NCBI GenBank assembly: GCA_015061005.1
Contig: SUXJ01000007.1
Span: 62,001-126,000, forward strand
Source of the DNA: Bacteroidales bacterium
GTDB taxonomy: Bacteria; Bacteroidota; Bacteroidia; Bacteroidales; Muribaculaceae
Length of the DNA: 64,000 nt
Direction: 5' to 3'
Made by a program: the position numbers and the translations under genes
The notes under the pieces: model-generated
What the model was told of the DNA's origin: nothing
Seen by the model: only the letters and a program-made list of their open reading frames with translations
The model's database searches: none
Shown: positions 1-60,095 of the stretch, piece after piece
Layout: each line of letters opens with the position of its first letter
Numbering within the stretch: position 1 is the stretch's first letter

Positions 1-385
1 GGTAAGCCCATTGCCATGAATATTCAAAATGAGCCTCATCTTTGGGCTCATAGTTGGCAGTGTCGAGATAATTAACGCCACACTGCAAACAAGCTTCCAT
101 GATAGCTAAATCCTGATATGGAAGCGCCACGTTTATTACCAACTGCGGTTTGTGGCGATTGAGGAGTTCTACGAGTTCTTCGACCGAATCGGCATCAACG
201 CGATCGGTAAGGATTGAAGGCGCTTGGGGCACAGCAGCACGAATAGCATCTGCCACAGCGTCACACTTACTTTGTGTACGGCTTGCGATAACGATTTCAG
301 GGCCAAACACTTCGGGATGTTGCGCACATTTATGAGCCACTACAGTGCCCACACCACCTGCGCCAATAATGATGACTTTAGCCAT
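1..385 (-). CDS. Saccharopine dehydrogenase / carboxynorspermidine synthase family protein (N-terminal part, truncated by window edge)
   Basis: Reverse-strand reading from 385 gives MAKVIIIGAGGVGTVVAHKCAQHPEVFGPEIVIASRTQSKCDAV..., a Rossmann GxGGVG start; continues off the left edge. Confidence 0.85.
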   Translation of the reverse strand, partial: MAKVIIIGAGGVGTVVAHKCAQHPEVFGPEIVIASRTQSKCDAVADAIRAAVPQAPSILTDRVDADSVEELVELLNRHKPQLVINVALPYQDLAIMEACLQCGVNYLDTANYEPKDEAHFEYSWQWAY

Positions 386-480
386 TTACTTCGGATTTGT
401 TAAGATATGTTTTTTCAATTTGACCGCTAATTTACGAATTTATCCTCATTTCTGCAAAAAGAAATCTTTCAACGCATAAA

Positions 481-515
481 AATGAAGAACCCACAGCATT
501 TGCAGGTTCTTCATT
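481..515 (-). terminator. Rho-independent-like terminator of the sialidase gene
   Basis: AATGAAGAACC...GGTTCTTCATT 11-bp perfect inverted repeat, followed on the minus strand by a T-run. Confidence 0.7.
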
Positions 516-533
516 ATGGGAAAAATGCAGGTC

Positions 534-3500
534 TTAATGCTGAATAAATTTGCAACCGTCTTTAATGTATAAATGACCTTTAACCGGGTTCACCACTCTG
601 CGCCCTTGAAGGTCATACATGGGACTATCTGATACATTCGAAGGATTGATTTCCTCAATTGAGCTTTGAGATTGAACAACATCGATACGAAACAAATTAC
701 TGTAATTGGCACTAAAGCCAACAGAATTTGACCAAGAGTCGAATGTTCCTGCCGCCATGATGATAATTGCGCCATCTGTGGTGCCATCAGAACGCTTGCT
801 CACGATGTAGTAAGTGTCATCGAGCGTTGTACCTCCGTCGTTGATAGACCAATCGCAATAAGTAGCATTATAGGTGGCGAGAGTTCCGGCGTTATTATTA
901 TAGCCATAGTTTGCGCCGGCACGCCAAATCATGTAGCGTTGCGATGCTTCATTGTAAAAGCTATACTTACCGCTTGCTTCTTTAGTACATTTGAACTTAG
1001 CAGGTTCACCAACGATTTCGGCCGACGAAGTGGAAATATCCAGCACATTGTTTTGGTTAACATAAAGAACATATTCCGAACCATTCTGCTGAACGTTGGT
1101 AAAAGTCAAAACTTTACCGTCCCACTTATCTTCCGGAGCACTGCCCGCGAGCAACGCGTAGATTGCATCAACTTCTTCAGTAGTCGGATCTGCACTCATG
1201 GCATTGAGTGCATCCTCAAGGTTCGCCATGAGACTTGCAGAGGCATCGGAATCTTCTGCCAACGCCGTGAAATAGTCAATTAGGAATTCTTTGCGGTCAA
1301 CGTCACGCTTAACACTATATGCACCATTTGTGATATATTCGAGGTCATAGGCAACATAGATATTATCAAAGCCGTCAAAATTATGTTGGCCTGCACCGGT
1401 TGGGAAGCTCGTTGATACGGGATTATTACGTTTGCCAAAGCCGGTTAAGGTTTCTTCGTAGATGAAGCCGATTCTGTTATCAGCCTGAAGGTCCATTGAG
1501 CTATAAGCAGACGAAGTGTTGCTGACTTGATAAAACCCGTTCCAATCATTAGCGAAATTGGCAACAGAATTGATGTCAGTGAAATCAGTGAGTTCCTTAT
1601 AGAATATACCTACATTTGTACGCCCGGAGCCGGTTGGCAACGATTGCAAAGCAAGATACATTTCTTTGTTATCGATATTACGCTTAACGGGGACAACAAG
1701 AATTTCACCGTTGGTGGAATTGCCGCCGGGAGTAAGTCCGGAGCCTGCAAATGTGCTCTTCACAGAAGTGCTCCATTCGCCTTCACCGGTAAGGGTGTTA
1801 CTGTAAGTATATATGTTGTATATACGACCACCACCCACACGGCTTGACAGAATAACTCGTCCGTCAGGCATTTCTTCACACTTGGGTTCGTCGCCACCGG
1901 GAGCAGGAAGTGCGGAAGCTCCACCAAGGGCGTGCCATGTGCGACCGAAGTCATCAGAATAGATTACGCGGTTACCATTAGGACGCGCGCACATTGCAGC
2001 ATACAGGCGATAGTACTTATCCTTCTTAACAATACGGCTTTGGAACACCTTACCTCCACCGACAAAAGCAGCTTGAATGGGATTTCCTGCATCGAAAAGG
2101 CTATAGATGTCTTCAGTAACATTTACAGGGGTACCCCATGTATTGCCATTATCGGAACTATGAATTGTAGCAATGAGGTTGGGGTTTTGGCGAGTAGTAT
2201 TGCCATTGCCATAAACTGTACAACCGGCCACAGCTATGATAAGCACTTCATTGCTTGTACGGTCAGCAACAATTGCCGGGTCACCGAATGCGGTGTCAAA
2301 GTAGTTTTCTGTTGCAGAGGTGCGACCTGTGCCAACGGCAACATCAATCATATCGCTCCAAGTCTCGCCATGATTATCGCTGGTGCGGCACACCACGTCA
2401 ACCTGTCCGTAACCGGGATCGGTACCACAAACGAGTCGAGCGGCTGCAGTAATCAGTCGGCCATTGCTAGCCGTTGTTATGCCCGGGATACGATAAGGCG
2501 GAATAACTCCGTCTCCTTTACTGGTGTTATACAAATCTTGTTTTACAGGAGCAGCAGGAACGTCAATATTTGAAACCTTGATTGTGTTTCCTTCAACGAC
2601 AATATCGGCTCCGCTGAGAACTCCACCAAGCATTGCCGCCGAAAGCTGAGTTGCAGCAATTTCTCCTGAAGTAATAAAGAAACCTCCATTGAAAGCCTTT
2701 TCTACGGTTGCTCCATGAGTATATACAACATAAACATCGGGATTATTCTCAACTACAACGTTATAAACGTTCATATCATCAACATCAACCGACACAAAGC
2801 GCCAATTGTTGTCGTCGGCATTCGCGCCGCCATCAGTCCAAGTGGTAAGGAATGGAACTCCGCCAACCATAAAGTTGGACCCGCCATTCGTGCAGTTCAG
2901 AGCTTCAGTGAAATAGTAATAACGATATTCACCTACATCATGAGTTGAGCCAACGGTGAGCTCACTGTAAGAACCCATAACTCCTGTGCCATAGTTGGTT
3001 CCTGCTACGATAGGATTGCCATCGCCATTAACAATGCCGATTTTGTTATTATCCTTTACTTCAATGCGCCAAATTCCGTTGTTGGTTTCAACCACAGAGT
3101 TTGATTGAAGTGTGAACTTCATGCTGTTAGCTCCAAGAGTTGCATCGTTATAAAGGTGTTCGGCGCGCGAAGTTGCTTTGCTCACCAAATGATAGTAGCC
3201 CGAAGTAACATCTTTTGCTGCAGGGATCTCTACTTCTTTACCATTGAGGAAGTCTTCAAGGTCGTTAACCAAGGTCGCACAATCTTGACCTGCTATTGAA
3301 CCGGTAAAGCGTCCGAGGAGAGCATTGAGATCCGCAAGTTTTGATGCATTGTCTTTGTATTCTTCGCGAAGAATTTGAATTTTCTCATATTGGTGTATGC
3401 CCTCAATCAAACGTTCGAAACGCACACTTGAGCGATTTCCCGGATAGTAGCAATAAGTGTCGCCCGCACCAAACTTGCGGAAACGACTGTCGGTAAGCGG

Positions 3501-5549
3501 ATGTTCGTCCCAGTTAATCCAAGCCCAATGCAAGTATCCGTCGAGATTCATTTTTGCGGCATAGATGGGGAGATAAGCCGCTTCGGCAGAAAAGGCGTTG
3601 CTGAAAATATTGGGTTCAGAATTAGCGCAGCTGGTATAGAACGTGGTAACCATACCGTCAGCCTTGCGGCTTGAGAGTTGAGCCGCGGTAAAGAGGTGTT
3701 CTTGTCCGAGCTGAACGCTCTTATCATGAAGTTTATCGCAAAGCGAAGAGTGGTAATTTCCTGCCAGAGCCATTTTGAATCCGAGAGCATTAGCAATATT
3801 GTAGGCGTTCAGCATGTCGCTCTCTGCACGTTCATCCATGGCTATGCAGGTTTTTTCAAACCAACCTTTTTGCTGCAAGTGGGACTTAAACGCTGTCAGG
3901 AAGTTGTTCCACAAAGTAGAATACTCGGTAGATGAAGTCGTGGTTGTAATGAACTTATAGGTTGCAGACGCTTCGTCATAATAACGGAAACTCATATCCC
4001 ACGGCACCATGCTGAAACAGTTAATCTGCTTATCAATACCGTATTCTGCACAAAGTTCAACATATTTATCGAAAATTTCGTAATCATAGGTCCAAGTACC
4101 GTCGGCTTTCTTGACTGTTTCTACCATAGGGTCGAAAAGGTCATGAGTTTGTTCGCCCCATGGCTCATAAAAGAGAATGGCGGAGACAGTACGCTGACCT
4201 GCACGTCCGAGTGCTTTCAGGTACGGGCGAAGTGCTTCAAAGTGCTCATCGCTCCAACGTTCCACTTGATAGTAACGACTTACGGCATAAGGCTGTTGCC
4301 AAAAGTCGAGATGGAATTTCTGGTCCGCAACTTCGGGCAGAGAATGAGAGTCAACCACAATGTTGAGAGTGAGGCTCTTCACAACATTTCCGGTAGCATT
4401 AACAACCTCAAGAGCAGTCGTGTACTGACCGGCTTCAATGCTGCGCGGAACTTCGATTGTGCACCAAACAGGACGAGTTTCCATTGCAGGCACCTCATGA
4501 GGCTTATCTTGGTCAATAACGTCTGCAACGAGCCATGGTGCAAGAGTGGTCGGATGATTTCCACACGAAACATAATCATCAGTGATAACATAGTTGACAA
4601 AGCGAGCATCACCTCCATTTATACCGGTAGCAACCCCGGATTTTGTCCATTCGGTCATTCTTACAGTCAACGTGCCTTGATCTGTATTGCTAAAGAGCAC
4701 GGCTTGAATATTTGCACGTTCACCCTTCCACGCGTTAATTGTTGCAACATCTTTTTGAGTCACAGCCGGAACTTCATGGAGTTTATATTGCACATCACGC
4801 GATGCCCATGTGGCATTCAGCCCTGCGGGTATAGAATTCCAAGCCGCCACATCGGGAGTAGTGCCAACACGAGGTTCATCATAATCATCTATGGGATAAT
4901 CAACCACTACCTCTCCGGCTTCACCACTAACACGGAGCATCACATCAATTATAGAGCCGCCATCGCTGATAAAATTAGCATAGGAACCGGTCGGGTCAAT
5001 ACTATTCCACTGCACCGCATATCGCATACGAAATACGGCTCCGTCTTCAACGTCGGTCGGCACATTAAAGGAACCGGGAGCGAGAACATCACCATTGCTT
5101 TGATATATGCCTGCACTATTCCAACCGGTATCGCCGTTAGTGTTCTTACCATAGAGCGACCAGCACATGAGTTCATTACCATCACCCTTGGTATATGGGC
5201 CATCACCTTGCAAATTTACATCAAACTGCTTATTGTTATTCCAGTCAACATAAACATAACCGTGCATCCACGATCCGTTGATGGCAATCTGAGGAGTCAC
5301 TGTTTCACCTCGCATCACTTCAAAAGTAATGGCGGTCTTGTCGAAATAAGCAGCACAACGAGGTGCAGATGCAATATTTGTTATTGACTGCTGAGAACTA
5401 TGAGTCCCCACAATACCTACTGAAATGGGATAATGAGTGTCGTGATTGACATTCTCATCAGCACCATGCACAACATAGTAATCGGACTGAGAATGCGCGG
5501 CAAATACCGACATCGCAGCCGAAATCAAAAAAAGTGATAATTTTTTCAT
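534..5549 (-). CDS. Secreted multidomain sialidase (GH33) with GEVED-like and DUF4091 glycoside-hydrolase-like domains and a C-terminal sorting-like motif
   Basis: 1671 aa; signal peptide; YRIPGI motif plus Asp boxes (SDNHGETW, SSDNGNTW, SDDFGRTW); DUF4091-like HWAWINWDEHP...SSVRFERLIEGIHQYEKI; C-terminal YDLQGRRVVNPVKGHLYIKDG. Confidence 0.85.
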   Translation of the reverse strand: MKKLSLFLISAAMSVFAAHSQSDYYVVHGADENVNHDTHYPISVGIVGTHSSQQSITNIASAPRCAAYFDKTAITFEVMRGETVTPQIAINGSWMHGYVYVDWNNNKQFDVNLQGDGPYTKGDGNELMCWSLYGKNTNGDTGWNSAGIYQSNGDVLAPGSFNVPTDVEDGAVFRMRYAVQWNSIDPTGSYANFISDGGSIIDVMLRVSGEAGEVVVDYPIDDYDEPRVGTTPDVAAWNSIPAGLNATWASRDVQYKLHEVPAVTQKDVATINAWKGERANIQAVLFSNTDQGTLTVRMTEWTKSGVATGINGGDARFVNYVITDDYVSCGNHPTTLAPWLVADVIDQDKPHEVPAMETRPVWCTIEVPRSIEAGQYTTALEVVNATGNVVKSLTLNIVVDSHSLPEVADQKFHLDFWQQPYAVSRYYQVERWSDEHFEALRPYLKALGRAGQRTVSAILFYEPWGEQTHDLFDPMVETVKKADGTWTYDYEIFDKYVELCAEYGIDKQINCFSMVPWDMSFRYYDEASATYKFITTTTSSTEYSTLWNNFLTAFKSHLQQKGWFEKTCIAMDERAESDMLNAYNIANALGFKMALAGNYHSSLCDKLHDKSVQLGQEHLFTAAQLSSRKADGMVTTFYTSCANSEPNIFSNAFSAEAAYLPIYAAKMNLDGYLHWAWINWDEHPLTDSRFRKFGAGDTYCYYPGNRSSVRFERLIEGIHQYEKIQILREEYKDNASKLADLNALLGRFTGSIAGQDCATLVNDLEDFLNGKEVEIPAAKDVTSGYYHLVSKATSRAEHLYNDATLGANSMKFTLQSNSVVETNNGIWRIEVKDNNKIGIVNGDGNPIVAGTNYGTGVMGSYSELTVGSTHDVGEYRYYYFTEALNCTNGGSNFMVGGVPFLTTWTDGGANADDNNWRFVSVDVDDMNVYNVVVENNPDVYVVYTHGATVEKAFNGGFFITSGEIAATQLSAAMLGGVLSGADIVVEGNTIKVSNIDVPAAPVKQDLYNTSKGDGVIPPYRIPGITTASNGRLITAAARLVCGTDPGYGQVDVVCRTSDNHGETWSDMIDVAVGTGRTSATENYFDTAFGDPAIVADRTSNEVLIIAVAGCTVYGNGNTTRQNPNLIATIHSSDNGNTWGTPVNVTEDIYSLFDAGNPIQAAFVGGGKVFQSRIVKKDKYYRLYAAMCARPNGNRVIYSDDFGRTWHALGGASALPAPGGDEPKCEEMPDGRVILSSRVGGGRIYNIYTYSNTLTGEGEWSTSVKSTFAGSGLTPGGNSTNGEILVVPVKRNIDNKEMYLALQSLPTGSGRTNVGIFYKELTDFTDINSVANFANDWNGFYQVSNTSSAYSSMDLQADNRIGFIYEETLTGFGKRNNPVSTSFPTGAGQHNFDGFDNIYVAYDLEYITNGAYSVKRDVDRKEFLIDYFTALAEDSDASASLMANLEDALNAMSADPTTEEVDAIYALLAGSAPEDKWDGKVLTFTNVQQNGSEYVLYVNQNNVLDISTSSAEIVGEPAKFKCTKEASGKYSFYNEASQRYMIWRAGANYGYNNNAGTLATYNATYCDWSINDGGTTLDDTYYIVSKRSDGTTDGAIIIMAAGTFDSWSNSVGFSANYSNLFRIDVVQSQSSIEEINPSNVSDSPMYDLQGRRVVNPVKGHLYIKDGCKFIQH

Positions 5550-16434: not shown

Positions 16435-16446
16435 AACAACATAATT

Positions 16447-16633
16447 GCCTCACTGAGCAGATTGGGAAACTCTTCAAACCTATTTAACTCCCGAGACAAG
16501 CTTAACGAATCAATGGCGGGCTCCATCCCTTCGGGGAAGTGCCTTCGGGCACCAAGGCAGATTACAAAGGTTCGCGAGCACTCAAATCCTGTCATTCGGA
16601 GTTTCTTCCAAATCCTCAGTGAGGCTTTTTATT
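16447..16633 (+). ncRNA. Candidate structured ncRNA, 6S RNA-like (about 187 nt)
   Basis: Perfect 11-bp closing stem GCCTCACTGAG (16447-16457)/CTCAGTGAGGC (16615-16625), extended by GATT/AATC, GGAA/TTCC and ACTC/GAGT; central unpaired region; two C(UUCG)G hairpins; T5 tail. No ORF. Confidence 0.55.
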
Positions 16634-19916: not shown

Positions 19917-20049
19917 TTCCTAATTAGAGAAATTTTTCTTTTTTTCAATACTGCAAAGTTACTCCATTTTATTCACATCTGCAACCCCTCATCACTTTTC
20001 ACTATCCACTCTCCACTAAAATCTACGATTTTGTCCTCCGAACCCTTCG

Positions 20050-20057
20050 TAACTTTG
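20050..20057 (+). promoter_or_regulatory. TAACTTTG -7 element driving RNA element 1, copy 1
   Basis: Exact TAnnTTTG; upstream block AAATCTACG...CCTTCG also shared with copy 2. Confidence 0.6.
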
Positions 20058-20059
20058 CA

Positions 20060-20223
20060 TCAGCAATGTTCAATGGAGTTCTTTGACGTATTGGAAAAAA
20101 GAGGGTGAATGATCCGTCCCGGTCATTCCAAACACGCCGCCGGGCAGGCCGCGGTCGGCAAAACTCAAGGTGGCTCCACCGATGCAAGCCCGGGAAACTT
20201 GCGCCGACCGAGCCGCCCTTTTG
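20060..20223 (+). ncRNA. Structured RNA element 1, copy 1 (unidentified; Bacteroidales-1-like possibility)
   Basis: Near-identical core GAGGGTGAATGATCCGTCCCGGTCATTCCAAACACGCCGCCGGG(c/t)AGGCCGCGGTCGGC also at about 56742; 5' hairpin with diverged sequence; compensatory terminal stem GGTGGCTC/GAGCCGCC then TTTTG; GC-rich relative to flanks. Confidence 0.65.
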
Positions 20224-20261
20224 TTCTCACCTTTCAGTTTTCACTTTTCACATATTTTCAC

Positions 20262-20269
20262 TACCTTTG
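20262..20269 (+). promoter_or_regulatory. TACCTTTG -7 element driving RNA element 2, copy 1
   Basis: TAnnTTTG match directly before the conserved GCAGCGCAGACCGCA block. Confidence 0.55.
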
Positions 20270-20272
20270 CAG

Positions 20273-20365
20273 CGCAGACCGCACCGCAGAAGCCCGGTCA
20301 TGGGCAAAGCGAGAGGGTCGGCTGACATACATAACTGAAAAGCGTTTACTCAACGCTCTTTTTTG
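20273..20365 (+). ncRNA. Small structured RNA element 2, copy 1 (about 90 nt) with intrinsic terminator
   Basis: Block GCAGCGCAGACCGCAC(C/T)GCAGAAGCCCGGTCATGGGCA...AGGGTCGGC(T/A)GACATA conserved with 56972-57064; 3' AGCGTT-tactc-AACGCT-CTTTTTT hairpin. Confidence 0.6.
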
Positions 20366-20395
20366 TTCATCAATAATTATATCATTCAATTATAA

Positions 20396-21949
20396 ATGAA
20401 AAAGTTACTATTAATGATGTCACTGTTGAGCATCATTATTGTGAGTTGCAATAATGGCAACTTTGACGACCCCGAAGACCCGAATAATTCTACGAGCCAA
20501 CAAGATCCGACAAGACTCCCCGAACCTGCCGCAAATGAAATCTACTACACCACAACCGATGGATACCTGATTGATTTCTCAAAAGAAAGTTGGTATAAAA
20601 CCTCAGTTATAGACCATTCCGTAAAAGATGGAACAATTTGTGTCCTGACTTTCGCCGCTAACATAAAAGCAATTATTAAAGAGCAATTTTACGATCAAGA
20701 CGACTTAGAATCAATTATACTGCCTCATGGCATCACAAAAATAGAAGAAAATGCATTTTATGGTTGTAAAAACATGCAGCAAATCAGCATCCCAAATTCG
20801 GTAACTGAAATTGGGTCCTTTGCGTTCTGTGGATGTTCAAGCCTACAAACCATCAGCATCCCAAATTCGGTAACTGAAATTGAGCACTCTGCGTTCAAAA
20901 GATGTTCAAGCCTACAAACCATCAGCATCCCGAATTCGGTAACTGAAATTGGGTACTATGCGTTCGAAGAATGTTCAAGCCTACAAAACATCAGCATCCC
21001 AAATTCGGTAACTATAATTGGGTACTCTGCGTTCTATGGATGTTCAAGCCTACAAACCATCAGCATCCCAAATTCGGTAACTGAAATTTGGGACTCTGCG
21101 TTTGATGGTTGCTCAAGCCTCAAAAATATAATATTACCGGAGTCTTTAACTAAGATTGCTGAGTCTTTATTTAGTGAGTGCTATAGCTTGGAAAGTATTA
21201 CAATTCCCAACTCCGTAACCGAAATTGAAGCAGGCGCCTTTGATGGTTGTTATAGCCTCAAAAATATAACATTACCGGAGTCTTTAACTAAGATTGCTGA
21301 GTCTTTATTTAGTGAGTGCTATAGCTTAGAAAACATCTCAATTCCTAACTCCGTAACCGAAATTGAAGCAGACGCCTTTTTTGGTTGTTTAAGCCTCAAA
21401 AATATAATATTACCGGAGTCTTTAACAAAGATTGGTAAGAAAGCGTTCGGTAGCACCGGTTTGGAAAACATCTCAATTCCTAACTCCGTAACCGAAATTG
21501 AAGTATATGCGTTTTTCGGTTGTACAAATCTCAAAAATATAATATTACCGGAGTCTTTAACAAAGATTGCTGGGTATTTATTTTGTGTGTGCCGTAGCTT
21601 AGAAAACATCTCAATTCCAAACTCCGTAACCGAAATAGAAACAGGCGCCTTTGATGGTTGTTCAAGCCTACAAACCATCAGCATCCCAAATTCGGTAACT
21701 AAAATTGGTGAAGGTGCGTTTGGCAATTGTCAACACTTAAAAAGTTTCTATTGTAAACCGACGACTCCGCCCTATATCTCTGATGCTGGTCCTGGGATAT
21801 TTGACTCTTATGATTACGAATCTACTGCTCATGAGTCATTAGTGATATATGTTCCAACCGAAGCCGTTGAGACATATAAAAGCGCCAGTGGCTGGATCCT
21901 TTATAAAGACAGAATTCAGGGATATGATTTTAGTGCGGATAATAAATAA
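20396..21949 (+). CDS. BspA-like leucine-rich-repeat (LRR_5) lipoprotein
   Basis: Lipobox IIIVSCNN; tandem NSVTEIGxxAFxGCSSLQTISIP repeats. Confidence 0.92.
   Translation: MKKLLLMMSLLSIIIVSCNNGNFDDPEDPNNSTSQQDPTRLPEPAANEIYYTTTDGYLIDFSKESWYKTSVIDHSVKDGTICVLTFAANIKAIIKEQFYDQDDLESIILPHGITKIEENAFYGCKNMQQISIPNSVTEIGSFAFCGCSSLQTISIPNSVTEIEHSAFKRCSSLQTISIPNSVTEIGYYAFEECSSLQNISIPNSVTIIGYSAFYGCSSLQTISIPNSVTEIWDSAFDGCSSLKNIILPESLTKIAESLFSECYSLESITIPNSVTEIEAGAFDGCYSLKNITLPESLTKIAESLFSECYSLENISIPNSVTEIEADAFFGCLSLKNIILPESLTKIGKKAFGSTGLENISIPNSVTEIEVYAFFGCTNLKNIILPESLTKIAGYLFCVCRSLENISIPNSVTEIETGAFDGCSSLQTISIPNSVTKIGEGAFGNCQHLKSFYCKPTTPPYISDAGPGIFDSYDYESTAHESLVIYVPTEAVETYKSASGWILYKDRIQGYDFSADNK
20834..21727 (+). 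repeat. In-gene LRR DNA repeats: 69-bp units (from 20834) then 138/135-bp super-units (from 21110), then reversion to the 69-bp type at 21659
   Basis: Unit starts at 20834, 20903, 20972, 21041, 21110 (69 bp) and 21110, 21248, 21386, 21521, 21659 (138/138/135/138 bp). Confidence 0.9.
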
Positions 21950-21966
21950 TTGCCACAAATAAAAAT

Positions 21967-56393: not shown

Positions 56394-56434
56394 CAGCGCA
56401 ATTACGGAAACGACCGTAAGTTGGCGAGAAAAAT

Positions 56435-56508
56435 GCTTCAGTAGCTCAGTTGGTTAGAGCACCTGACTGTTAATCAGGGGGTCGTTGGTTCAAGCCCATC
56501 CTGAAGCG
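56435..56508 (+). tRNA. tRNA-Asn (anticodon GTT)
   Basis: gcttcag...ctgaagc acceptor; loop CTGTTAA. Confidence 0.93.
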
Positions 56509-56537
56509 CAAAATAAACATTCTTTCAAAATAACTTT

Positions 56538-56611
56538 GCTTCAGTAGCTCAGTTGGTTAGAGCACCTGACTGTTAATCAGGGGGTCGTTGGTTCAAGCCC
56601 ATCCTGAAGCG
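56538..56611 (+). tRNA. tRNA-Asn (anticodon GTT), identical second copy
   Basis: Same 74-nt sequence as 56435-56508. Confidence 0.93.
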
Positions 56612-56612
56612 C

Positions 56613-56644
56613 AAAACTCCACCACTCTCGGTGGAGTTTTTTTT
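56613..56644 (+). terminator. Terminator after tandem tRNA-Asn
   Basis: AAACTCCACC-actct-cGGTGGAGTTT then T-run. Confidence 0.85.
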
Positions 56645-56690
56645 GCACCTTTTTTACGAAAATCTACGCTTTCACCCTCCATACCCTTCG

Positions 56691-56698
56691 TAACTTTG
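56691..56698 (+). promoter_or_regulatory. TAACTTTG -7 element driving RNA element 1, copy 2
   Basis: TAnnTTTG with upstream ACCCTTCG context shared with copy 1. Confidence 0.6.
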
Positions 56699-56700
56699 CA

Positions 56701-56867
56701 ACATCCAAATGTCAAAGTTAGTACATTGAAATGTTGGAACAAGAGGGTGAATGATCCGTCCCGGTCATTCCAAACACGCCGCCGGGTAGGCCGCGGTCGG
56801 CAAAAACTCAAGGGGGACTCTGTCAGTGCAAGCCTGGGAAACTCGCACCGACCGAGTCCCCCTTTTG
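56701..56867 (+). ncRNA. Structured RNA element 1, copy 2
   Basis: Core near-identical to 20100-20160; 5' hairpin CAACAT..AATGT/ACATT..ATGTTG; terminal stem AAGGGGGACTC/GAGTCCCCCTT perfect 11 bp then TTG. Confidence 0.65.
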
Positions 56868-56963
56868 TCATCTCCGTCTCAATCCACTTAAAACACATTA
56901 GCCCCATAAATCACATAAATTTTAAAAATCATATACACTCTTTCCGATTTCACATTTTTTCAC

Positions 56964-56971
56964 TAACTTTG
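56964..56971 (+). promoter_or_regulatory. TAACTTTG -7 element driving RNA element 2, copy 2
   Basis: TAnnTTTG immediately before GCAGCGCAGACCGCA. Confidence 0.55.
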
Positions 56972-57064
56972 CAGCGCAGACCGCACTGCAGAAGCCCGGT
57001 CATGGGCATTGTGGGAGGGTCGGCAGACATAATGATTAGAAAGCGTTTACTCAACGCTCTTTCT
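56972..57064 (+). ncRNA. Small structured RNA element 2, copy 2
   Basis: Conserved with 20273-20365, including the AGCGTTTACTCAACGCTCTTTCTT terminator hairpin. Confidence 0.6.
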
Positions 57065-57180
57065 TGGCTTTTCGAAATCTGGTAAATTTCAATCACAGTC
57101 AGGTTAGATGCAGCGGTAGATGCCTTTGTGGATATGTATAAATATTGATTAACGCGATAGCGCTAATCCGTATCTCATAT

Positions 57181-57279
57181 TCAGCGTGGGCTTCTGCGTT
57201 GCTCGTTCTACTGTGATGGGCATACCAGAGCCTCGAAAAGCGGGACGAGTAACAAGTACAGACTCTCACGCTTTTTTTA
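57181..57279 (+). ncRNA. Candidate rod-shaped RNA (element 3) with intrinsic terminator
   Basis: AGCGTG (57183-57188)/CACGCT (57267-57272), TCTG/CAGA and an 11-bp stem GTTGCTCGTTC (57198-57208)/GGACGAGTAAC (57243-57253); T7 tract. Confidence 0.55.
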
Positions 57280-57321
57280 TTTCTCGCCTAAATCCGGAGC
57301 GTCTATAAGGCAAAACATTCA

Positions 57322-58644
57322 ATGCTTATGCATACCTTAAAACACATCATCACGGCAGCCATGCTCCTATGCACTGCCACAGCCTTCGCCTATGACTTCG
57401 AAGTCAACGGCATCTATTACAACATCATCTCCGACTCCGAAGTCGAAGTAACCAACGGAGAAAATGCCTATGCTGGCGAAATAATAATCCCCGAAACTGT
57501 AACTTATTCCGAATACTCTACTTCGCCCCTTAAAGTCACTGCAATCGGTGGGGCCGCATTTCTTGGTTGCAGCAGCCTTACGTCAATTGAGATCCCTAAT
57601 AGCGTTACCACTATCAAGGGGAATGCATTTGACTTTTGCATCAGTCTTACGTCAATTGACATTCCTAATAGCGTTACCACTATCGAAAAATATGCCTTTT
57701 ATCGATGCAGATCTTTGGCACAAATTGAAATTCCTAATAGCGTTTCCACTATCGGCAATGGAGCATTTAGTCAATGTAGCAGCCTCACGTCAATTGAGAT
57801 CCCTAATAGCGTTACTGCTATCGGTTATTCCGCATTTCTTGGTTGCGGCAGCCTCACGTCAATTGAAATTCCTAATAGCGTTACTGCTATCGGTCATTCC
57901 GCATTTCGTGGTTGCGGCAGCCTCACGTCAATTAAAATTTCCAATAACATAACCTCTCTTCCCAGTGATATTTTTCGTGGATGCAATGGCTTGACATCAA
58001 TTGACATTCCCAATAGCGTAACCAATATTGATGATTATGCATTTGGCGATTGCACTAGCCTTACATCAATTACGATTCCTAATAGCGTAACCATTATCGA
58101 TGTTTTCGCATTTTACGGATGCACTAGCCTTACATCAATTAAGATTCCTAATAGCGTAACCTATATTCATGATGGCGCATTTTACGGATGCACTAACCTG
58201 ACATCAATTGAATTGCCCAATAGCATAACCAAACTTTCTCCTGTTACTTTTGCTAATTGCAGTGGCCTAATCTCAATTAGATTACCCAGCAACATCGGTG
58301 CAATTGGGGATGGAGCTTGCTATAATTGTAGTAATTTACAACACATATACTGTCTACGTGAAGTTCCTGCTGCGTGTTTGATGGAGGATAGAGGATGTTT
58401 TCAAGGCGTCCCGGTTGAAACCTGCGTACTGCACGTGCCGGCAGGCTGTGTTGAGGCGTATCAAGCTGCCGACGGTTGGAAAGACTTCGTAAACATCGTG
58501 GGCGACGCAGCCGGCATCGAAAACGTCACAACCGCTGACGGTCCGGCGGAATACTTCGACCTGCAGGGCAGAAAAGTCACCGCCCCATCCAACGGTATCT
58601 TCATCAAAAAACAAGGCAACTCCACCTCAAAAATCAAACTCTAA
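57322..58644 (+). CDS. BspA-like LRR_5 secreted protein (copy A)
   Basis: Signal peptide; repeated CxSLTSIEIPNSVTTI units; C-terminal EYFDLQGRKVTAPSNGIFIKKQGN. Confidence 0.92.
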   Translation: MLMHTLKHIITAAMLLCTATAFAYDFEVNGIYYNIISDSEVEVTNGENAYAGEIIIPETVTYSEYSTSPLKVTAIGGAAFLGCSSLTSIEIPNSVTTIKGNAFDFCISLTSIDIPNSVTTIEKYAFYRCRSLAQIEIPNSVSTIGNGAFSQCSSLTSIEIPNSVTAIGYSAFLGCGSLTSIEIPNSVTAIGHSAFRGCGSLTSIKISNNITSLPSDIFRGCNGLTSIDIPNSVTNIDDYAFGDCTSLTSITIPNSVTIIDVFAFYGCTSLTSIKIPNSVTYIHDGAFYGCTNLTSIELPNSITKLSPVTFANCSGLISIRLPSNIGAIGDGACYNCSNLQHIYCLREVPAACLMEDRGCFQGVPVETCVLHVPAGCVEAYQAADGWKDFVNIVGDAAGIENVTTADGPAEYFDLQGRKVTAPSNGIFIKKQGNSTSKIKL

Positions 58645-60095
58645 ACAGGTATGAAACTAAAATCATTAGTAGCATCTATAATGTGCTGCATGGCTGCCAC
58701 AGCCTTCGCCCAAGACTTCGAAGTCAACGGCATCTACTACAACATCATCTCCGACTCCGAAGTCGAAGTAACCAACGGAGAAAATGCCTATGCTGGCGAA
58801 ATAATAATCCCCGAAACTGTAACTTATTCCGAATACTCTACTTCGCCCCTTAAAGTCACTGCAATCGGTGGGGCCGCATTTCTTGGTTGCAGCAGCCTTA
58901 CGTCAATTGAGATCCCTAATAGCGTTACCACTATCAAGGGGAATGCATTTGACTTTTGCATCAGTCTTACGTCAATTGACATTCCTAATAGCGTTACCAC
59001 TATCGAAAAATATGCCTTTTATCGATGCAGATCTTTGGCACAAATTGAAATTCCTAATAGCGTTTCCACTATCGGCAATGGAGCATTTAGTCAATGTAGC
59101 AGCCTCACGTCAATTGAGATCCCTAATAGCGTTACTGCTATCGGTTATTCCGCATTTCTTGGTTGCGGCAGCCTCACGTCAATTGAAATTCCTAATAGCG
59201 TTACTGCTATCGGTCATTCCGCATTTCGTGGTTGCGGCAGCCTCACGTCAATTAAAATTTCCAATAACATAACCTCTCTTCCCAGTGATATTTTTCGTGG
59301 ATGCAATGGCTTGACATCAATTGACATTCCCAATAGCGTAACCAATATTGATGATTATGCATTTGGCGATTGCACTAGCCTTACATCAATTACGATTCCT
59401 AATAGCGTAACCATTATCGATGTTTTCGCATTTTACGGATGCACTAGCCTTACATCAATTAAGATTCCTAATAGCGTAACCTATATTCATGATGGCGCAT
59501 TTTACGGATGCACTAACCTGACATCAATTGAATTGCCCAATAGCATAACCAAACTTTCTCCTGTTACTTTTGCTAATTGCAGTGGCCTAATCTCAATTAG
59601 ATTACCCAGCAACATCGGTGCAATTGGGGATGGAGCTTGCTATAATTGTAGTAATTTACAACACATATACTGTCTACGTGAAGTTCCTGCTGCGTGTTTG
59701 ATGGAGGATAGAGGATGTTTTCAAGGCGTCCCGGTTGAAACCTGCGTACTGCACGTGCCGGCAGGCTGTGTTGAGGCGTATCAAGCTGCCGACGGTTGGA
59801 AAGACTTCGTAAACATCGTGGGCGACGCAGCCGGCATCGAAAACGTCACAACCGCTGACGGTCCGGCGGAATACTTCGACCTGCAGGGCAGAAAAGTCAC
59901 CGCCCCATCCAACGGTATCTTCATCAAAAAACAAGGCAACTCCACCTCAAAAATCAAACTCTAAACAGGTATGAAACTAAAATCATTAGTAGCATCTATA
60001 ATGTGCTGCATGGCTGCCACAGCCTTCGCCCAAGACTTCGAAGTCAACGGCATCTACTACAACATCATCTCCGACTCCGAAGTCGAAGTAACCAA
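57418..60095 (+). repeat. Tandem direct duplication, unit 1320 bp (57418-58775 matches 58738-60095)
   Basis: Line-by-line identity at offset 1320 by eye; left boundary at T/C difference 57417/58737, right boundary at 58776/60096. Confidence 0.93.
58651..59964 (+). CDS. BspA-like LRR_5 secreted protein (copy B, chimeric)
   Basis: Signal peptide MKLKSLVASIMCCMAATAFAQ shared with 59971 gene; LRR body identical to 57322 gene. Confidence 0.92.
   Translation: MKLKSLVASIMCCMAATAFAQDFEVNGIYYNIISDSEVEVTNGENAYAGEIIIPETVTYSEYSTSPLKVTAIGGAAFLGCSSLTSIEIPNSVTTIKGNAFDFCISLTSIDIPNSVTTIEKYAFYRCRSLAQIEIPNSVSTIGNGAFSQCSSLTSIEIPNSVTAIGYSAFLGCGSLTSIEIPNSVTAIGHSAFRGCGSLTSIKISNNITSLPSDIFRGCNGLTSIDIPNSVTNIDDYAFGDCTSLTSITIPNSVTIIDVFAFYGCTSLTSIKIPNSVTYIHDGAFYGCTNLTSIELPNSITKLSPVTFANCSGLISIRLPSNIGAIGDGACYNCSNLQHIYCLREVPAACLMEDRGCFQGVPVETCVLHVPAGCVEAYQAADGWKDFVNIVGDAAGIENVTTADGPAEYFDLQGRKVTAPSNGIFIKKQGNSTSKIKL

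Follow-up and report, generated by a model that had tools for sequence, protein, structure and literature searches.

Three adjacent genes of one type, here called A, B and C, lie on the forward strand towards the end of the window, by which we mean the whole 64,000-nucleotide stretch that was analyzed. All three encode LRR_5 (PF13306) proteins, with scores of 465, 465 and 268 bits for A, B and C, respectively, against a Pfam gathering cut-off of 27.7, and they are separated from each other by gaps of 6 bp. Their N-termini are signal peptide-like and end in AFA, the predicted signal peptides being MLMHTLKHIITAAMLLCTATAFA in A and MKLKSLVASIMCCMAATAFA in both B and C. Two further features matter for what follows: a head that is conserved between the genes, spanning the end of the signal peptide and about 20 residues beyond it, and a structured leader RNA upstream of A (Table 1).

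Table 1. Features of the A-B-C locus, in window coordinates
Feature	Position	Strand	Basis or remark
Promoter-like box of the leader (Bacteroidetes -7 type), TAACTTTG	56964..56971	+	sequence; same box 5' in most leader copies
Structured leader RNA (element II), ~310 nt	56975..57285	+	covariation, folding; U-run end ~37 bases before gene A
Gene A, BspA-type LRR_5 protein, predicted secreted, 440 aa	57322..58644	+	LRR_5, E 1.2e-141
Conserved head of A, 82 bp	57374..57455	+	96% identical to that of C (60014-60095)
Repeat copy 1 (exact)	57418..58775	+	1358 bp
Conserved C-terminal tail module of A	58476..58625	+	copies at 59796-59945 and, 89%, 61242-61391
Gene B, chimera (C head and A body), 437 aa	58651..59964	+	ORF, LRR_5, repeat comparison
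38-bp exact A/C tract, proposed exchange site	58738..58775; also 57418-57455, 60058-60095	+	sequence comparison
Repeat copy 2 (exact)	58738..60095	+	1358 bp, offset 1320
Gene C, BspA-type LRR_5 protein, predicted secreted, 479 aa	59971..61410	+	ORF, LRR_5

The sequence-only reading had judged the two repeat copies identical by eye, and a letter-for-letter comparison bore this out, with not a single base of further extension on either side. The next longest exact repeat at the locus measures only 55 bp, so that chance is excluded for a match of 1358 bp. The chimeric make-up of the middle gene was likewise borne out: the first 125 bases of B are those of C, and its body is that of A. The hybrid structure is, however, functionally trivial, since it alters only the signal peptide and the first mature residue; mature A and B differ at 1 residue among 417 (residue 1, Y versus Q, with the AFA cleavage site inferred), and nothing in their comparison points to a new binding surface in B. 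As far as the sequences tell, B is an extra dose of mature A with the signal peptide of C, not a new protein; its reading frame is intact, it keeps the operon's spacing of 6 bp, and it has a signal peptide of its own.

The boundaries of the repeat point to how it was formed. The perfect 38-bp tract sits inside the conserved head; the repeat starts one base past the last mismatch between A and C (57417, T versus C), and its end coincides with the end of A/C identity (57455/60095), so that what is found is a direct repeat whose ends lie at the edges of the parental homology, as in homologous unequal exchange. Because the repeat begins and ends at these edges, a single out-of-register exchange within the 38-bp tract suffices, and we consider it probable that A-B-C arose when the heads of A and C underwent homologous exchange. 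The ancestral locus would have held adjacent BspA-type genes A and C behind a single leader, with the two heads and their perfect tract as the exchange substrate; the exchange, whether by unequal crossover between sister chromosomes, by single-strand annealing or by template switching at a fork, would have fused the head of C to the body of A and added one 1320-bp unit. The outcome would be an additional, presumably expressed, copy of mature A, with a possible dosage effect at the cell surface, and the 1358-bp copies could in turn recombine with each other, expanding the array or contracting it back to A-C at a raised rate. The unequal crossover that the sequence-only reading had proposed therefore stands as the simplest account of all boundaries, while the zero divergence that it had offered as a sign of recency is weak evidence. 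Two other origins were rejected: (i) insertion of a mobile element, as no transposase-like frame or inverted repeats occur in 57-61.4 kb, and (ii) expansion of repeat units inside a gene, as the 69-bp periodicity in the genes is that of normal LRR_5 repeats.

The head may have served as a junction elsewhere. Gene D (contig C10:7246) combines a leader and head like those of A (92-99%) with a body that resembles that of C (77% DNA identity) and not that of A, and on the strength of this combination the conserved head looks like a recurrent junction.

How much of the array can be trusted depends on the assembly. The source genome (2.12 Mb in 18 contigs, 99.93% complete) yielded no 16S gene, and among its 36 contig ends 6 pairs overlap by 127 nt exactly, and no pair overlaps by any other length. 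We take exact 127-nt end overlaps to be the mark of a de Bruijn assembler run at k=127, most likely SPAdes, and together with the missing 16S gene they point to a de Bruijn-type short-read assembly with a final k of 127, in which, given that absence, longer repeats are left unresolved. As a separate observation, some contig ends fall in sequence coding for the shared C-terminal tail (IYDLQGRRLS...). In the k=127 graph of the locus, one unit gives no branch and two units give one, and for any k of at least 77 the collapsed A-C locus was computed to have no branch point. As the A-C locus lacks a branch at k=127, the chimeric junction of B was most likely present in the reads, and the duplication is in all likelihood real. 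The repeat is, on the other hand, longer than the reads, so that neither the copy number (at least two) nor the absence of divergence is secure; bubble removal in an assembler may merge sparse differences between repeat copies. The overlaps of contig ends thus offer a way to separate, in a draft genome, a part that is likely read supported (the junction) from parts that are not (copy number and zero divergence). Of the three causes of zero divergence suggested earlier (a recent event, homogenization or an artefact), the last has been narrowed by the k=127 graph, and the zero divergence itself is insecure, since the copies may have been collapsed.

The alternative that survives best accepts the duplication and differs in the count: an array of three or more units, or a strain mixture in which some carry one unit and others several, may have been printed as two. 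Besides the length of the repeat and the short-read character of the assembly (evident from the missing 16S gene and the end overlaps), simulations speak for it (PMC6052550 Table 5): in most settings, SPAdes scaffolds printed two copies although the true number ranged from 2 to 5. Motifs longer than the insert (400-500 bp against an insert size of 250 bp) behaved differently, however, in that SPAdes joined only true two-copy arrays and those of 3-5 copies stayed unjoined (PMC6052550 Table 5), and by analogy the two printed here are more likely a true two; we therefore regard another copy number as rather unlikely.

Gene conversion that kept A and B identical in an older array of three genes appears improbable. 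A, C and D resemble each other more in their heads and tails than in their bodies, which is a sign of exchange within the family, but the conversion tracts would have had to stop exactly at the A/C head boundary and to cover 1.3 kb together with the intergenic gap without leaving a difference, a pattern for which one duplication accounts in a single event; the array, moreover, has no trace in ten congeners. Least credible is a pure assembly artefact, a plain A-C locus walked twice through the shared 38-bp tract: the repeat boundaries match that tract exactly, as they would for a loop walked twice at k of 38 or less, but such a loop calls for a tract at least as long as k, the shared tracts (38 bp in the heads, 55 bp in the tails) are shorter than the final k of 127 shown by the end overlaps, and a collapsed locus without a branch at k of 77 or more gives no loop unless reads support the chimeric junction.

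If the identity of the copies is real, the out-of-register duplication can be dated loosely. At published mutation rates of 0.5 to 8 per genome per year (PMC9393564), the expectation for two 1320-bp copies in 2.1 Mb is about 0.0006 to 0.01 new differences per year, so that finding none limits the age to roughly 300 to 4,800 years (95%), to be read as an order of magnitude only.

Searches among relatives show a common gene type and a local array. BspA-type genes are frequent in the family, with 300 of 397 genomes matching A at E < 1e-40, and the source genome itself holds about a dozen LRR_5 loci, among which A-B-C is the clear tandem case. A synteny check on ten congeners found no BspA array next to the porin, no homologue of the 1320-bp unit beyond short LRR matches turned up when the genus was searched at the DNA level, a protein scan of genome contigs gave distant BspA relatives only, and the sequence pattern of the head had no match in the genome contigs searched. 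A one-contig genome of the same family carries a tandem LRR_5 pair that is 93.6% identical over 2.9 kb, which indicates that duplications of this sort are ordinary in the family. The array is thus a duplication of an ordinary kind, of which at least two units exist and the exact number is uncertain. No description of it was found in the literature.

The locus can be set beside three known systems. With the BspA-like/LRR_5 (PF13306) families of the Bacteroidales and of Trichomonas vaginalis, in which tandem and ectopic duplications occur, it shares LRR_5 bodies, secretion (here predicted) and clusters of highly similar neighbors that local duplication explains (PMC2843621); A-B-C differs in having an exact copy, a junction that can be placed in the 38-bp tract of the head, and a chimera that swaps the signal peptide only. 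With tandem duplication by unequal crossover at short homologies, the general route of bacterial amplification, it has in common the direct repeat and the homology at the join; expansion and collapse are expected likewise, and we found no feature that goes beyond the general case. Like copy number-varying arrays of surface antigens, it consists of identical in-frame tandem units at a surface protein locus, but its units are whole genes rather than intragenic repeats, and it is known from one assembly. Its value lies in being a clean, recent-looking case of BspA-type gene multiplication, in which conserved heads act as the exchange points and the LRR bodies stay intact.

The leader upstream of A looks more novel and more interesting than the duplication. 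Copies in the source genome precede A, D, the LRR_5 genes at C8:24.5k and C10:81k and three other genes, and of the 24 other genomes of the same family that were searched, 22 gave DNA matches, as did only 1 of 16 from other families, and weakly there. Covariation is strong when 18 copies drawn from ten genomes are aligned: 95.5% of the cells pair and 31 of 80 pairs have changes on both sides; the two-sided cells number 143, whereas shuffles give 42 and sliding the partner gives 26 at most. The copy in the window folds at z = -6.1. The architecture combines a small domain on the 5' side with a single long hairpin, which GAAAAGCGU/ACGCUUUU close; a TAnnTTTG box marks the 5' end, and the 3' end carries a U-run that often lies 50-65 bases before a start codon. 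Downstream genes in other genomes include those for LRR_5 proteins, DUF6175 and DUF6567.

Rfam 15 holds no family for this leader, even at E values up to 5 (chance matches of unrelated families aside), and Rfam has none for a second upstream element described below; no description of the leader was found in the literature, where an unnamed motif in the supplement of a large structured-RNA survey is possible. The leader looks like an undescribed structured RNA family that is multicopy across this family of the Bacteroidales and often stands upstream of BspA-type and other secreted proteins. Its position suggests that it would regulate the genes downstream; since some copies lack a gene close by on the downstream side, the family may alternatively be a free-standing RNA. 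We are evenly divided on whether A-B-C represents the coding part of a regulated cassette that is controlled by a cis-regulatory RNA of a new class serving surface proteins, and to which the duplication would add a cistron. If confirmed, the leader would define a new family of RNAs that regulate secreted proteins in a gut-type lineage, and would outweigh the duplication in importance.

Several other elements were seen in the window. At 56650-56870 (+) lies a second dispersed element with a promoter-like start, a near-invariant core of about 60 nt, GAATGATCCGTCCCGGTCATTCCAAACACGCCGCCGGGTAGGCCGCGGTCGGC, and a terminator-like stem; 17 copies from the source genome were aligned with a mean column identity of 91%, and the core had no match in the relatives searched. 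In some copies the two halves stand about 900 nt apart around an ORF of about 209 aa that is rich in Arg (MHTACFRRFIRRTLSLRERACIESLERQRQ...) and has no Pfam match. The LRR_5 gene at 20396 (region 20015-21950) follows a copy of this second element and a leader copy cut down to its first ~117 nt, a natural truncation that ends in a short hairpin and a T-run. Just upstream of the array are tandem identical tRNA genes at 56434-56513 and 56537-56616, with 80 bp identical including flanks and the copies 103 bp apart, and a Bacteroidales-1 (suggested 6S) RNA occupies positions 16446-16632.
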